Below are positions 50,611 to 57,999 of a stretch of 64,000 bases of DNA, in pieces (within the stretch, counting starts at the first letter, position 1; each line of letters opens with the position of its first letter). The notes under the pieces were generated by a model. That model was not told where the DNA came from. It saw only the letters and a program-made list of their open reading frames with translations, and did not search any database. Source of the stretch: Streptomyces griseus. Its GTDB lineage: Bacteria > Actinomycetota > Actinomycetes > Streptomycetales > Streptomycetaceae. The DNA is taken from contig NZ_MDKB01000002.1 in NCBI RefSeq assembly GCF_001715295.1, positions 1,448,313 through 1,512,312 of the forward strand, given 5' to 3'. The position numbers were made by a program, and so were the translations under genes.

Positions 50611-52860
50611 CTAGGCGAACAGACCCTTCAGGGTCCCCTCGTGCGCCGTGCGCAGCTCACCCAGCGCGATGCTGAACTCGCCCTGGACCTCGATCTCCTC
50701 GCCGTCCACGACACCGATGCGGGTGACGGGCAGGGCCCGCGCCCCGCACATGTCGGTGAAGCGGAGCTCCTCGCTGCGGGGAACCGAGACGACCGCGCGC
50801 CCCGCCGACTCCGAGAAGAGGAAGGTGAAGGCGTCGAGACCGTCCGGCACGACCAGCCGGGCACCCTTCCCGCCCCGCAGGCAGGACTCGGTGACCGCCT
50901 GGATCAGACCGCCGTCGGAGAGGTCGTGCGCCGCGTCGATCATGCCGTCGCGCGAGGCCGAGATCAGGATCTCGCCGAGCAGCTTCTCGCGGCTCAGGTC
51001 GACCTTGGGGGGCATGCCGCCGAGGTGCCGGTGGATCACCTCGGACCACGCCGAGCCGCCGAACTCCTCGTGCGTGTCACCGAGCAGGTAGAGGAGCTGG
51101 CCCTCCTTCGCGAAGGCGACCGGCGTACGGCGGGTGACGTCGTCGATCACACCGAGCACGGCGACGACCGGCGTCGGGTGGATCGCCGTCTCACCGGTCT
51201 GGTTGTACAGCGAGACGTTGCCGCCGGTGACCGGGGTGCCCAGCTCCAGGCAGCCGTCCGCGAGGCCGCGGGTGGCCTCGGCGAACTGCCACATGACGTC
51301 CGGGTCCTCGGGCGAACCGAAGTTGAGGCAGTCCGAGATGGCGAGCGGCCTGGCACCGGACGCGGCGACGTTGCGGTACGACTCCGCCAGCGCGAGCTGC
51401 GCGCCCGTGTACGGGTCGAGCTTCGCGTAGCGGCCGTTGCCGTCGGTCGCCATGGCCACGCCCAGGTTCGACTCCTCGTCGATCCGGACCATGCCGGCGT
51501 CCTCGGGCATCGCGAGCACGGTGTTGCCCTGCACGAAGCGGTCGTACTGGTCGGTGATCCAGGACTTGGAGGCCTGGTTCGGGGAGGCCACCAGTTTGAG
51601 GACCTGCTCGCGCAGCTCGGCGCCGTCCGCCGGGCGGGCCAGCTTGCCGGCGTCGTCGGCCTGCAGCGCGTCCTGACAGGAGGGCCGCGCGAACGGGCGG
51701 TGGTACGTGGGGCCCTCGTGGGCGACCGACCGCGGGGGAACGTCGACGATCTGCTCGCCGTGCCAGAAGATCTCCAGCTGCGAGCCCTCGGTCACCTCAC
51801 CGATGACGGTGGCGATGACGTCCCACTTCTCGCAGATCTCCAGGAAGCGGTCCACGTGCTGCGGCTCGACGATCGCGCACATGCGCTCCTGCGACTCGCT
51901 CATGAGGATCTCCTCGGGCGAGAGCGAGGAGTCGCGCAGCGGCACGGTGTCCAGCTCGACGCGCATGCCGCCGGACCCCGCGGAGGCCAGCTCGCTCGTG
52001 GCGCAGGAGAGCCCGGCGCCGCCGAGGTCCTGGATGCCCGCGACGAGCTTCTCCTTGAAGATCTCCAGGGTGCACTCGATGAGGAGCTTCTCCTGGAACG
52101 GGTCGCCGACCTGGACGGCCGGGCGCTTCGCCGGGCCGGTCGACTCGAAGGTCTCGGAGGCCAGGACGGAGACGCCGCCGATGCCGTCGCCGCCGGTACG
52201 GGCGCCGTACAGGATGACCTTGTTGCCGGGGCCCGAGGCCTTGGCGAGGTGGATGTCCTCGTGCTTCATGACACCGATGCAGCCGGCGTTGACGAGGGGG
52301 TTGCCCTGGTAGCACTCGTCGAAGACCACCTCACCGCCGATGTTCGGCAGGCCCAGGCAGTTGCCGTAGCCGCCGATGCCCGCGACGACGCCGGGCAGGA
52401 CGCGGCGGGTGTCGGGGTGGTCGGCCGCACCGAAGCGCAGCGGGTCGACGACCGCGACCGGACGGGCGCCCATGGCGAGGATGTCGCGGACGATGCCGCC
52501 GACGCCGGTGGCGGCGCCCTGGTAGGGCTCGATGTACGAGGGGTGGTTGTGCGACTCGACCTTGAAGGTGACCGCGTACCCCTGGCCGACGTCGACCACA
52601 CCGGCGTTCTCGCCGATGCCGACGAGCATCGCGTCGTTGGCGGGGACCTTCTCACCGAACTGCTTGAGGTGGACCTTGCTGCTCTTGTACGAGCAGTGTT
52701 CGGACCACATCACGGAGTACATGGCGAGCTCGGCGCCGGTGGGGCGGCGGCCCAGGATCTCGCGGATCCGGGCGTACTCGTCCTCCTTGAGGCCGAGTTC
52801 CTTCCAGGGCTGCCCGGTGTCCGGGGTTTCGGCCGCGTGCTTGACCGTGTCCAGGCTCAT
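50611..52860 (-). CDS. purL: Phosphoribosylformylglycinamidine synthase subunit PurL
   Basis: A 749-aa small-type PurL, the synthetase subunit that converts FGAR to FGAM with ATP, working with PurS and PurQ. Motifs: [19 protein letters not shown] near the N-terminus, [40 protein letters not shown] and [19 protein letters not shown] 52860 overlaps the purQ stop by the tetranucleotide ATGA, giving translational coupling. Confidence 0.97.
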
Positions 52861-53537
52861 GCGTTGACCAGCTTCTTGATGATCGAGGTGAAGAAACCGA
52901 GGCCGTCGGTGCGGCCGGTACCGACCAGCGGCTCGACGGCGTGCTCGGGGTGCGGCATCAGGCCGACGACGTTGCCCGCCGCGTTGGTGATGCCGGCGAT
53001 GTCCCGCAGCGAACCGTTCGGGTTCCCGTCGAGGTAGCGGAAGGCGACGCGGCCCTCGGCCTCGAGCTCGTCGAGCGTGTGCTCGTCGGCGGTGTAGCGG
53101 CCGTCCATGTTCTTCAGCGGTACGGAGATCTCCTGGCCCGCGGAGTAGTCGGAGGTCCAGGACGTCTCCGCGTTCTCCACCCGCAGCTTCTGGTCGCGGC
53201 AGATGAAGTGGAGGTGGTTGTTGCGCAGCATGGCGCCGGGCAGCAGGTGCGCCTCGGTCAGGATCTGGAAGCCGTTGCAGATTCCGAGGACCGGCATCCC
53301 GGCCTTCGCCTCGGTGATGACCGTCTCCATCACCGGGGAGAAACGGGAGATGGCTCCGGCGCGCAGATAGTCGCCGTAGGAGAAGCCCCCTGCGAGGACC
53401 ACCGCGTCGACCTGGTGCAGGCCCTTGTCGCGGTGCCAGAGGGATACGGGTTCGGCCCCGGCGAGCCGGACGGCACGCAGGGCGTCCCGGTCGTCGAGCG
53501 TGCCGGGAAAGGTGACGACTCCGATACGAGCGGTCAC
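52857..53537 (-). CDS. purQ: Phosphoribosylformylglycinamidine synthase, glutaminase subunit
   Basis: A 226-aa class I glutamine amidotransferase that supplies ammonia to PurL. The triad is visible: Cys in [11 protein letters not shown] and His/Glu in [10 protein letters not shown]-terminal [13 protein letters not shown] and [13 protein letters not shown] are family hallmarks. GTG 53537 overlaps the purS stop codon (GTGA). Confidence 0.96.
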
Positions 53538-53803
53538 TTCGGCTCCTCGGACTTCTCGTCCGTCTCGATCCTGACGGTGAAGTCCTCGATGACGGTGTTG
53601 GCGAGGAAGGTCTCCGCCAGCTCGTCGATGCGGGCGAGGGCTGCGGCATCCACCGGCCCCTCGACCTCGAGCTCGAAACGCTTTCCCTGACGTACGTCCG
53701 CGATTCCGTCGAAGCCGAGACGGGGCAGTGCGCGCTGCACAGCCTGTCCCTGCGGGTCGAGGATCTCCGGCTTGAGCATGACGTCGACTACGACGCGTGC
53801 CAC
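53534..53803 (-). CDS. purS: Phosphoribosylformylglycinamidine synthase subunit PurS
   Basis: An 89-aa small structural subunit that bridges PurL and PurQ and helps channel ammonia. [20 protein letters not shown] opens the protein, and [15 protein letters not shown] is the conserved core. GTG 53803 was chosen over GTG 53809 because GGGAG lies five bases upstream and homologs begin with MARVVV. First gene of purSQL. Confidence 0.94.
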
Positions 53804-54169
53804 TGGCACTCCCGGTGGTGTGGTGCGGCTGTGTCTCCGAGGGGTTCCCCAGATCCCCGCGGGTCCACTCAGCGTACCTGGCCAGAAATTCTACGCGGGT
53901 AGATATCCGAGTACCACGATCACGCCGAGATATCGACAGCCACACCACGAAGGAAAAGACCTGGAAAAAAATCTTCACCCCGATTGCACCCGGACACGCG
54001 GATGCAATTGGCCGGGCTTCACAATGCGGCTCCCGCCGCTGTACAAATGATTAGCGGGGAAAGCAGGATTGCCCCGAAAACAGACGACACCAGTCGATCC
54101 GCATCCTCAGCGGCCGGAAGGCCGGTCGCATCCCGGACGCGACGGTGCCGTAGGAAAGGACCGATATCC
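53804..54169. other. Divergent promoter region of purSQL and the Lsr2-like gene
   Basis: About 366 bp, AT-rich in 53880-54130 for this genome, which suits promoters on both strands and Lsr2-type binding. A minus-strand -10 candidate TAGAAT is at 53888-53893, with no clear -35. An A-run (AAAAAAA, 53965-53971) stands out. No gene. Confidence 0.45.
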
Positions 54170-54505
54170 GTGGCTCAGCGCGTAGTGGTTTCGCTCTCCG
54201 ACGACATCGACGGGGGAGAAGCGGCGGAAACGGTCACCTTCGCCCTGGACGGGAAGTGGTACGAGATCGACCTCAATCCCGCCAATGCAAAGAAACTGCG
54301 CAAGGCCCTCGCGCCCTACATGGCGGCCGGCCGGAAGCAGACCGCCGCCGGCAGACACGGCAGGGCCCCCGTGGCGTACCACCACACCTCGGTCGCACCC
54401 GACCCCGCGGCCGTGCGCGCCTGGGCCCGCTCGCACCGCATGGAGGTGCCGGCCCGCGGCCGGATCCCCAAGAAGGTCTACGAGGCGTTCCACGCCGCCA
54501 GTTGA
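54170..54505 (+). CDS. lsrL: Lsr2-like nucleoid-associated protein (LsrL type)
   Basis: A 111-aa protein. The N-terminal dimerisation domain has VVVSLSDDIDGGEAAETVTF and WYEIDLNPANAKKLRKAL. The C-terminal DNA-binding domain has VRAWARSHRMEVPARGRIP, with the RGR minor-groove clamp and the KKVYEAF end. Lsr2 proteins bridge AT-rich DNA and silence foreign or secondary-metabolite genes. Streptomyces carry Lsr2 and this second paralog beside purSQL (SCO4076 from memory). GTG 54170 after AGGAAAGGA. Confidence 0.9.
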   Translation: MAQRVVVSLSDDIDGGEAAETVTFALDGKWYEIDLNPANAKKLRKALAPYMAAGRKQTAAGRHGRAPVAYHHTSVAPDPAAVRAWARSHRMEVPARGRIPKKVYEAFHAAS

Positions 54506-54577: not shown

Positions 54578-54608
54578 TTGCACAACACCCCTGCAGGTCG
54601 GCTAGAGT
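54578..54608 (+). promoter_or_regulatory. Promoter of the unusual tRNA-Gly
   Basis: TTGCAC (54578-54583) and TAGAGT (54603-54608), spacer 19 bp, end 49 bp before the tRNA. The next tRNA-Gly has an analogous TTACCG-N19-TAGAGT at 54740-54770. Confidence 0.55.
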
Positions 54609-54657: not shown

Positions 54658-54729
54658 GCGGGTGTAGTTCAGTAGTAGAACATCCCCCTTCCAGGGGGAA
54701 GGCGCAGTGTGCAATTCCTGTCACCCGCT
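54658..54729 (+). tRNA. tRNA-Gly (TCC) with non-canonical D- and T-loops
   Basis: 72 nt; acceptor GCGGGTG/CACCCGC, discriminator T, anticodon loop CTTCCAG giving TCC. The D-loop is AGTAGTA where tRNA-Gly normally has AATGGTA, so G18 is A. The T-arm reads GCAGT-GTGCAATT-CCTGT: the stem has G49-T65 and A51-T63, a T53/C61 mismatch, and no TTC motif in the loop. GTGC in place of GTTC and loss of G18G19 are the features reported for staphylococcal tRNA-Gly that feed peptidoglycan bridges and avoid EF-Tu. Streptomyces peptidoglycan has a single Gly bridge, so a cell-wall role is a reasonable but unproven inference. Confidence 0.85.
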
Positions 54730-54808: not shown

Positions 54809-54881
54809 GCGGACGTAGCTCAGTTGGTAGAGCGCAACCTTGCCAAGGTTGAGGTCGCCAGTTCGAACCTGGTCGTCCGCT
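54809..54881 (+). tRNA. tRNA-Gly (GCC), copy 1
   Basis: A 73-nt canonical cloverleaf: acceptor GCGGACG/CGTCCGC, D-loop with GG, anticodon GCC, T-loop TTCGAAC, discriminator T. It is a useful contrast to the preceding TCC gene. Confidence 0.95.
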
Positions 54882-55380: not shown

Positions 55381-55453
55381 GCGAACGTAGCTCAGCTGGT
55401 AGAGCGCAACCTTGCCAAGGTTGAGGTCGCGAGTTCGAACCTCGTCGTTCGCT
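55381..55453 (+). tRNA. tRNA-Gly (GCC), copy 2
   Basis: 73 nt; acceptor GCGAACG/CGTTCGC, anticodon GCC, T-loop TTCGAAC, discriminator T. It differs from copy 1 in the acceptor and T-stems. Its -10-like TATAGT (55354-55359) overlaps the stop of the response-regulator remnant. Confidence 0.95.
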
Positions 55454-55498: not shown

Positions 55499-56428
55499 TC
55501 ACCTCTGCGGTGCGGCCGACCAGCTGATGCCCGTCAGGTGGGCGTAGGCGTCCAGGTACTTGGCCCGGGTCGCGTCCACGATCTCCTGCGGCAGCGCGGG
55601 CGGCGGCTGCTCGCCGTGCCGGTCCCAGCCGGAGGCCGCCGAGGTCAGCCAGTCCCGCACGAACTGCTTGTCGTACGAGGGCTGCGGCCTGCCCGGCTCC
55701 CAGGTCTCGGCAGGCCAGAAGCGCGACGAGTCCGGGGTCAGCACCTCGTCCGCGATGATCAGCTCCTCACCGCCGTCCGCGGTGGGCGCGAAGCCGAACT
55801 CGAACTTCGTGTCGGCGAGGATGATGCCGCGCTCGCGGGCGATGTCGCGGGCCCGGCCGTAGACGGCGAGTGTGGTCTGCCGCAGCGCCGCAGCGGTCTC
55901 GGGGCCGACCTCGCGGGCGACCTCCTCGTACGAGACGTTCTCGTCGTGGTCGCCGACGGCGGCCTTGGTCGCCGGGGTGAAGATCGGCCCCGGGAGTTCG
56001 GACCCGTCGACCAGGCCCTCCGGAAGGCCGAGACCGCAGACCGTGCGCGTCGCCTCGTACTCGGCGAGGCCCGAACCGGTCAGGTAACCGCGCGCCACGC
56101 ACTCGACGGGGACCATGCGCAGGGAGCGGCAGACGAGGGTCCGCCCGGCCCAGTCGGCGGGGGCCCCGGCGGGGAGCTCCGTGGACAGGACGTGGTTCGG
56201 GACGAGATCGGCGAGCTGGTCGAACCACCACAGCGACAGCTGGGTGAGGACCCTGCCCTTGTCCGGGATCTCGGTGGGCAGGACCCAGTCGTACGCGGAG
56301 ATACGGTCACTGGCGACCATGACCAGGTCACCCGCCTCGTTCCGGTACAGGTCGCGCACCTTGCCGGTGTGCAGGTGGGTGAGCCCCGGCACCTGCACGG
56401 GCTCGGGCTTTTCTACGAAACCGGACAC
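55499..56428 (-). CDS. purC: SAICAR synthetase
   Basis: A 309-aa phosphoribosylaminoimidazole-succinocarboxamide synthase, adding aspartate to CAIR with ATP. Motifs: GKVRDLYRNEAGDLVMVASDR at the start (nucleotide loop), VECVARGYLTGSG, and ADTKFEFGF with ELIIADEVLTPDSSRFW. GTG 56428 with GGAGG a few bases upstream. The dimethylformamidase-like gene lies 107 bp behind it on the same strand. Confidence 0.96.
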   Translation of the reverse strand: MSGFVEKPEPVQVPGLTHLHTGKVRDLYRNEAGDLVMVASDRISAYDWVLPTEIPDKGRVLTQLSLWWFDQLADLVPNHVLSTELPAGAPADWAGRTLVCRSLRMVPVECVARGYLTGSGLAEYEATRTVCGLGLPEGLVDGSELPGPIFTPATKAAVGDHDENVSYEEVAREVGPETAAALRQTTLAVYGRARDIARERGIILADTKFEFGFAPTADGGEELIIADEVLTPDSSRFWPAETWEPGRPQPSYDKQFVRDWLTSAASGWDRHGEQPPPALPQEIVDATRAKYLDAYAHLTGISWSAAPQR

Positions 56429-56535
56429 GCTGCCTCCGCGTAGGTTGATCCAGGAGTCGGTCCGATTGTCCCGCATGGAGCCGGTCCGCGCCGCCAGGGG
56501 TGGCCTGCGGCGGACGCCGCCGGTGTCCGGCTCCC

Positions 56536-57999
56536 TCAGTCCCGCTTGCAGATCCGGTCGAGCAGGTTGGCCGTGGCCCGCTGGATACGGGGGTCGACGT
56601 GGCCGGGCCGGTCCAGGGCCGGGGACCACGCGAAGGTGCCCGAGGCGAAGACGAGGGCTCCCGAAGGGGCTCGGTACAGCGAGGTCTCCTGGTGCCGGGT
56701 GGCTCCGTCGCCGTCCTGGTAGGGGGAGTGGGCGAGCAGGAGGCGGTTGTCGTGCTCGGGCAGCGTCGTACGCGGGAAGTACCGGTCGGCCTCACCGGCG
56801 ACCAGCCCGTCGATCTCGTCGCCCTCGGCCGCCCCGGTCGCCTCCCAGAGCCAGTGACCGGCGTTGCGTACGACCAGGGGATGGGGCTCGGGGACCCGTC
56901 CCGCGTACTGGATGCCGAGGAGCTGCTGTTCGGCGCGGTCGACCTCGCGCCAGAGCGCGGACTTCCCGGGGCCCCGGCGCTTGTGGCAGGTGAGGAGGCG
57001 GTCGGGGACGCCCGGGGCGGACGGGGAGAGGCCGACCTGCCAGTACATGGTGTTCGCGGAGAGGAAGACGAGCGACGTGCCGGTGTCCCGGGCGAGCTCG
57101 GCGGTGCGGCGCATGGGCAGCGACCAGTACTCGTCGTGGCCGGGGAAGACCAGGCCCCGGTAGCGGCTGGGATCGACGCGCCCCGCGTGCAGGTCCCGGG
57201 CGTCGGCGTACGCCAGGTCGTAGCCGTAGCGCTCGGCCCAGCGGATGAAGTCGTACGCGTGGCCGACGTGGAGCGGGAGGCCCGCGCCCGCGTAGGGGCG
57301 GTCGAAGGAGATGGTGGCGGCCGCGTCCTCCTCGCCCAGCAACCGCCCCCGCTCGTCCCAGGCGTGGTAGAGGCTTGCGCCGGTACGGCCGTCCTCCGGA
57401 TAGAGGTTGTAAGCCTGCCAGGTGATGTCGGGGAGCAGGAGCAGCAGGTCCGCCGGGTGGTCGTCGCGAACCGTGAAGGGGATGTGCGAGCGGTATCCGT
57501 CGGCGGTGGTGAGGACGGCGACGTACGCGCCGACCGACCAGTAGCCGGGGATCTGCAGGCGCCAGGAGAGCCACCAGTGGTGGCAGGAGACGGTCCGCTC
57601 GGCGGTGAGCGGTGCCGGCTGGACGATGCCGGACAGACGGGGGCTCGTGGTGATCTTCGCGGCGCCGTCGCCCGCGTAGTGGCCGATGCGGTAGACGTCG
57701 ACGGAGAACTGCTGCGGCGGGTCCACGGTGATGTGGAAGTCGATCGCCTCACCGGGGGCCGCGGCGCCCGGCGACGCGAAGCCTTTGATCTGCTGGTGGA
57801 CGTCGTCCGCAGTACGGGTGCCGCCCCCGGCTCCGCCGCGGCCGAGGTCGGGGTCGGCGTACCAGGGGACGACCTGGCCCGTGTCGTCGAAGTAGTTCTC
57901 GCTGCCCCGTAGCCAGGGCAGCGGGCCCTGCCCGAAGGGGTCGCTCACGGCGTGCGCGAGGGCACCTGATTCCCATCGCCGGATCTGCTCCGCCCCCAT
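56536..57999 (-). CDS. N,N-dimethylformamidase beta-subunit-like protein
   Basis: A 487-aa protein with no signal peptide. It is recognisable by DVYRIGHYAGDGAAKI, LLLLPDITWQAYNLYPEDG and GLVFPGHDEYWSLPMR, blocks shared with the large subunit of N,N-dimethylformamidase. The iron-ligand Tyr/Glu region and the C-terminal glutamine-amidotransferase-like fold appear complete. Whether it hydrolyses formamides here is unknown, since no small alpha subunit lies nearby. Commonly found between purC and purD in Streptomyces. Confidence 0.8.
   Translation of the reverse strand: MGAEQIRRWESGALAHAVSDPFGQGPLPWLRGSENYFDDTGQVVPWYADPDLGRGGAGGGTRTADDVHQQIKGFASPGAAAPGEAIDFHITVDPPQQFSVDVYRIGHYAGDGAAKITTSPRLSGIVQPAPLTAERTVSCHHWWLSWRLQIPGYWSVGAYVAVLTTADGYRSHIPFTVRDDHPADLLLLLPDITWQAYNLYPEDGRTGASLYHAWDERGRLLGEEDAAATISFDRPYAGAGLPLHVGHAYDFIRWAERYGYDLAYADARDLHAGRVDPSRYRGLVFPGHDEYWSLPMRRTAELARDTGTSLVFLSANTMYWQVGLSPSAPGVPDRLLTCHKRRGPGKSALWREVDRAEQQLLGIQYAGRVPEPHPLVVRNAGHWLWEATGAAEGDEIDGLVAGEADRYFPRTTLPEHDNRLLLAHSPYQDGDGATRHQETSLYRAPSGALVFASGTFAWSPALDRPGHVDPRIQRATANLLDRICKRD

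Follow-up and report, generated by a model that had tools for sequence, protein, structure and literature searches.

A 72-nt gene for a variant tRNA-Gly with the anticodon TCC lies at positions 54658..54729 (+) of the window, that is, of the whole stretch of 64,000 nucleotides of Streptomyces griseus DNA analysed here. The gene was present in every sampled genome of the genus and accompanies a canonical tRNA-Gly(TCC) gene in the same genome. Its T-stem has an extra U, which appears to be bulged out, and its elbow carries A18 and G55. We consider it probable, judging from the sequences, that this tRNA serves as a glycine donor for FemX and is partly shielded from EF-Tu. It is best read as a new, actinobacterial variant of the non-proteogenic tRNA-Gly of staphylococci; in the part of the open literature that was covered, no report of a variant tRNA-Gly in Actinomycetes was found.

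The gene and its neighbourhood

A preliminary description of the locus had proposed a tRNA-Gly-like gene with the anticodon TCC, with A at position 18 and a T-loop region that reads GTGCAATT. All of this was confirmed: Rfam RF00005 matches exactly 54658-54729 (+) with 53.5 bits (E 6.1e-10). ARAGORN made no call at 54658-54729. A covariance model made from 16 sequences (R1) gave the window gene 101.3 bits, whereas the canonical Gly(TCC) of this genome reached 66.2. The D-loop AGTAGTA (54671..54677, +) has A at position 18 (54674) and retains G19, and the anticodon (54690..54692, +) is flanked by an intact U33 (54689) and A37 (54693). The discriminator is T73 and CCA is not encoded.

Directly 5′ of the gene lies an Lsr2-like gene (54170..54505, +; Pfam PF11774 and PF23359) and 3′ of it lie two tRNA-Gly(GCC) genes (54809..54881 and 55381..55453, both +; ARAGORN and Rfam), which are canonical, as had been stated. 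The locus is flanked by the frames 50611-53978 and 55499-56629, which by eye look like genes of purine synthesis (purL, purQ, purC). The hexamer TAGAGT at 54603..54608 (+), 55 nt 5′ of the tRNA, is a possible promoter −10 element; it precedes 67 of 97 first copies of the gene, none of 15 later tandem copies and 0.8% of shuffled upstream stretches.

Of the 66 tRNA matches in the genome, only two, both of 85 nt, fall outside the loci read. Among the genes in these loci are three for Gly(GCC) and a canonical one each for Gly(TCC) and Gly(CCC). A second, canonical TCC tRNA therefore exists, the variant is not the only TCC isoacceptor, and it has to be regarded as an extra one. Since GGA accounts for only 5 of the 152 glycine codons in four genes counted, and since some genomes carry the variant in tandem, the demand of a rare codon is a poor reason for the additional gene. 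Compared with the canonical Gly(CCC) (locus L018), the acceptor stem of the variant is identical, with no pair differing, and the D-stem is similar. Unlike the variant, however, this tRNA and the canonical Gly(TCC) (L006) have G18, T55, G51-C63 and no bulge; 51 (CCC) and 46 (TCC) of 71 aligned positions are equal to those of the variant. Elsewhere in the genome, outside the window, the only Leu(CAA) and Leu(TAG) genes named by ARAGORN in the loci read (L072:56-131 and L073:59-134) are 76 nt long and have short variable regions, unlike the Leu genes with CAG, GAG and TAA, and there is a second, divergent tRNA-Cys(GCA) (L065:549-622), distinct from that of the Gly-Cys-Val cluster.

Reading of the T-arm and the elbow

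It had been supposed that G53-C61 is replaced by a T/C mismatch, but this need not be so. Infernal places one extra U (54708..54708, +) between T-stem positions 52 and 53, which leaves G53-C61 paired and gives a 7-nt loop TGCAATT (54710-54716, +) with G55 at 54711. With this reading, T55 to G is the sole change in the loop. Because relatives that lack the inserted base also show G53-TGCRANN-C61, the bulged U is favoured over the mismatch. Plain energy folding prefers a different T-arm, contrary to the bulged U; our reading is based on the covariance model and the relatives, not on energy folding. The better reading of the T-arm retains G53-C61 and a loop of 7 nt, with a single U bulged out of the stem.

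Two weak pairs had been noted in the T-stem. A51 (54706) and U63 (54719) indeed form a weak pair (54706..54719, +) that encloses the T-loop, but 49-65 is G-U, which a review (PMC4052509) lists among the strong EF-Tu pairs. Among 45 distinct sequences of the family, whose underlying entries count some loci twice, all 45 have A-U at 51-63, whereas at 49-65 there are 38 with G-U and 7 with A-U. The bulged base is T in 111 of the 112 Streptomycetaceae copies; the remaining one has C.

The claim that both elbow signatures are lost was not supported. G19, T54, C56 and A58 are retained in the window gene, and positions 18 and 55 change together: of the 49 family genomes with the gene, 42 have A/G and 7 have G/T, and no mixed case occurs. 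These figures come from a recount with a motif that left 18 and 55 free, to which some genomes contribute two loci; over all 131 copies at 116 loci it gave 124 A18/G55 copies, 7 G18/T55 copies and no mixed ones (40 and 5 distinct sequences). The G18/T55 forms come from 7 genomes of two genera of Streptomycetaceae (g2 and g5), and in these the GTGC found in the T-loop of the window gene is missing. Read from the sequence, the elbow pair has been swapped, not lost. The bulge is present in both forms, at one locus (L335) one base earlier. Since the bulge and A51-U63 persist where 18/55 switches, the T-stem, the face for EF-Tu, would be the constant hallmark of this tRNA, and the elbow apparently still folds. 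Absent from the window gene are the uninterrupted five-pair T-stem and the G18-U55 of an ordinary tRNA; a bulge and A18/G55 stand in their place.

Distribution of the gene

By blastn, the gene was found in 101 of 101 genomes of the genus, with identities from 85 to 100%, and 30 of these genomes retain all 72 bases; the variant is thus not absent from related genomes. This conservation, together with standard pairs throughout the stems, makes it more than a chance resemblance. In 15 distinct aligned sequences, each of the 315 pair cells holds a standard pair, and at four pairs both sides vary. U33, TCC and A37 are present in all 112 Streptomycetaceae copies examined; the motif used for these 112 copies fixed positions 18, 19, 55, 56 and 58, so that invariance at those positions is uninformative. 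Some genomes have two or three copies in tandem.

In the family, 49 of 61 genomes have a copy scoring at least 86 bits with the covariance model, and the next best match reaches 73.2. The other 12 are without the variant, and in two of them the syntenic site holds the Gly(GCC) genes alone. In a sample of the class, all 40 genomes of the genus have the gene and none of the 354 others exceeds 74.5 bits; 43 of these 354 gave an R1 match, and the 20 of the 43 that were read are all canonical. The pattern TTCCA..GTGC..CGCT matched 61 of the 394 genomes, the 40 of the genus and 21 others. The latter were taken as chance from their strings (L153 was inspected); a reversed control also matched many genomes. 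A phage origin was rejected, as the gene has no match among 50,697 phage records (blastn, E 1e-3).

Similar tRNAs outside the Streptomycetaceae

When 84,980 species genomes were scanned with a motif that does not permit a U ahead of GTGC, 51 stretches came up: 32 from Staphylococcaceae, 3 from Ruminococcus, and others from Intrasporangium oryzae, I. chromatireducens, a Propionibacteriaceae MAG, Mangrovactinospora, several Patescibacteria and further genomes. By hand count, 12 of the 19 stretches outside Staphylococcaceae have A18, 3 (Ruminococcus) are without GG, 3 keep GG and 1 is no tRNA. FemAB was found in 10 of 12 tested genomes of this group; the two that lack it (L205 and L210) have their tRNA in a cluster of 10 and 30 tRNA genes. 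In the first of these clusters, from a Planctomycetota MAG, a tRNA-Thr(CGT) (L205:5144-5217) has A18/G55 as well.

The bulge-free tRNA-Gly occurs in 19 of 149 genomes of the family of I. oryzae and in only 2 of 264 Propionibacteriales genomes. Like the variant, it has A18 (D-loop AGTAGCA), G55 and a similar anticodon arm, and a rough tree of 71 columns, with 18 and 55 masked and no support values, places it together with the window type. It differs in the lack of the bulge, in C33 in place of U33 in 6 of the 19 copies of the Intrasporangium family and in U37 in both Propionibacteriales sequences. The two forms may have a common origin or may have converged. The six copies with C33 are hard to square with decoding.

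The Ruminococcus tRNA-Gly(UCC) (L188, L200, L231) has a D-loop without GG, G55 and a pyrimidine at 37 (T37). Its D-loop and stems are unlike those of the variant, and its carriers are Bacillota; FemAB is present in both genomes tested (L188, L231). It is possibly a third lineage of wall tRNA-Gly. A18/G55 was also seen in tRNA-Gly genes of Patescibacteria and similar MAGs (L213, L214, L221, L203, L207). One Patescibacteria genome (L213, L214) has it in both Gly(TCC) and Gly(CCC), and therefore this pair alone does not mean that a tRNA is non-translational; these Patescibacteria tRNAs are probably translational.

Association with Fem transferases

A Fem-type enzyme had been expected in the host, and the genome indeed contains a single FemAB gene with an E-value of 1e-20 or below. 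The protein is related to staphylococcal FemX and matches the lipid II:glycine glycyltransferase 6snr with E 1.5e-32. The glycine bridge itself is taken from the literature on S. coelicolor, where a single glycine is added by FemX (PMC4790382); for I. calvum, a triglycine bridge is reported (PMC3035309).

In the family of I. oryzae, FemAB was found at E 1e-10 in 67 of 149 genomes, namely in all 19 carriers of the tRNA and in 48 of 130 non-carriers. A two-gene FemAB set was assumed where a genome had at least four HMM stretches, a class defined after the table was seen. It occurs in 20 of the 149, and the tRNA in 17 of these 20 but in only 2 of the 129 others (Fisher p 1.9e-17, which ignores kinship). 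All 12 Streptomycetaceae genomes without the variant have FemAB. In the Fem tree, the protein of the window's genome groups with Intrasporangium fem1, with Fem of Propionibacteriaceae and with Fem of the tRNA-less family members (G110, G113, G126 and G147 were placed); the rows of Patescibacteria, Staphylococcus, Ruminococcus and G681 are long branches, whose placement was not used. With FemAB but no variant tRNA in these 12 of 61 genomes, the tRNA would help Fem without being required for it; and as all 112 Streptomycetaceae copies have a flawless anticodon loop, some decoding is possible.

Discussion

The acceptor end, C35, C36 and U73, by which glycyl-tRNA synthetase is expected to recognize its tRNA, are all kept in the variant, and charging with glycine is therefore expected. 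The bulged U and the weak A51-U63 lie on the face of the T-stem that EF-Tu grips and would lead to poor binding, whereas the exchanged 18/55 pair would keep the contact of D-loop and T-loop and with it a stable L-shaped fold. With EF-Tu binding it poorly, most of the tRNA would stay away from the ribosome, and FemX, the enzyme that attaches the one glycine of the cross-bridge in peptidoglycan, would have a supply of Gly-tRNA to draw on. We infer charging, weak EF-Tu binding and use by FemX from these features.

The idea of a non-translational cell-wall tRNA, put forward in the preliminary description, thus survives in part. Conservation, the separate canonical TCC tRNA, the TGC T-loop shared with staphylococcal genes, the FemAB gene related to FemX and, in the Intrasporangium family, the association with the FemAB pair speak for it; the loss of the elbow, on which it had been built, is not supported. 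Against a glycine donor count G49-U65, which is kept in the window gene, the intact anticodon loop in 112 of 112 copies, the 12 of 61 family genomes with FemAB and without the tRNA, the presence in only 2 of 264 Propionibacteriales, and A18/G55 in the probably translational tRNAs of Patescibacteria.

Some of these points would suit an ordinary translational tRNA-Gly(UCC), in which A18/G55 does the work of the usual elbow pair, the bulge does no harm and GGA and GGG are decoded beside the canonical tRNA. U33, TCC and A37 are intact in all 112 Streptomycetaceae copies, G49-U65 is kept, and A18/G55 occurs in two glycine isoacceptors of one Patescibacteria genome. Furthermore, 18 and 55 covary, and the L-shape is therefore under selection. 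However, a canonical TCC tRNA is already present, GGA is rare in the genes counted, the bulge and A51-U63 are kept family-wide and six relatives have C33. We regard this explanation as rather unlikely.

A second alternative is that the tRNA donates glycine to other Gly-tRNA-dependent enzymes, such as the Fem-like ones of natural product pathways. To our knowledge such pathways are strain-specific, whereas the tRNA is found in 101 of 101 genomes of the genus and in the Intrasporangium relatives, which makes this improbable, although DhpK and Orf11 of Streptomyces use Gly-tRNA-Gly as substrate (PMC12945691). As little probability is given to a regulatory or stress-specific tRNA, or one that acts via its precursor or fragments, with glycine donation not its main role. 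The conserved upstream element of its own would fit such a role, but acceptor stem, anticodon and discriminator are of the tRNA-Gly type and conserved, and no regulatory partner was found in the surroundings of the gene. That the gene is decaying, as its omission by ARAGORN and its clean absence from the syntenic site in two genomes could suggest, is refuted by its presence in 101 of 101 genus genomes, 30 of them with all 72 bases, and by compensatory changes in the stems, and is most improbable.

The glycine-donor reading bears on a question of which little is known outside Staphylococcus, that is, how bacteria divide their Gly-tRNA between translation and the building of the wall. Being conserved, mostly present as one copy and found in tractable bacteria, the variant makes this question directly testable, and nature offers the comparisons: A18/G55 with the bulge, G18/T55 with the bulge, A18/G55 without the bulge, and absence of the gene. 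The variant also shows that a gene finder can miss such genes, and in tRNA counts of these genomes it should not be taken as a plain decoding isoacceptor. It is tempting to speculate, though with less than even confidence, that FemABX enzymes are served by glycine donors of their own in several lineages (Staphylococcaceae, Ruminococcus and several Actinomycetes), and that the form in Streptomycetaceae dodges EF-Tu by the conserved bulged U in the T-stem while the exchanged A18/G55 elbow keeps the fold.

The known system closest to this is found in S. aureus, where non-proteogenic tRNA-Gly(UCC) species are the donors for the pentaglycine bridge made by FemXAB; for one of them, charging and weak binding to EF-Tu are reported (PMC8007984). 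Common to both systems are an extra UCC isoacceptor alongside the canonical one, tandem copies at times and FemAB in the genome. G55 (GTGC in the T-loop) is found in the staphylococcal loci and in the window gene, and the GUGC substitution, said to be common to both, is borne out by the TGC T-loop of the staphylococcal genes from the motif scan. A51-U63 is likewise common to both (PMC4052509). In the same review, G18G19 of the S. aureus tRNAs is given as replaced by UU or CU. The variant, in contrast, changes position 18 alone and keeps G19, and 7 of the 49 family carriers have G18G19. Of the weak staphylococcal pairs A49-U65 and A51-U63, the variant has the latter in 45 of 45 and the former in only 7 of 45 distinct sequences; the window gene has G49-U65. 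The variant also retains A37, unlike the staphylococcal tRNA-Gly, and has the T-stem bulge, which is missing from all 32 staphylococcal stretches that were read. The staphylococcal carriers belong to another phylum. Most likely, the variant would work like the non-proteogenic tRNA-Gly of staphylococci, yet with G19 kept it misses a defining feature of that group.
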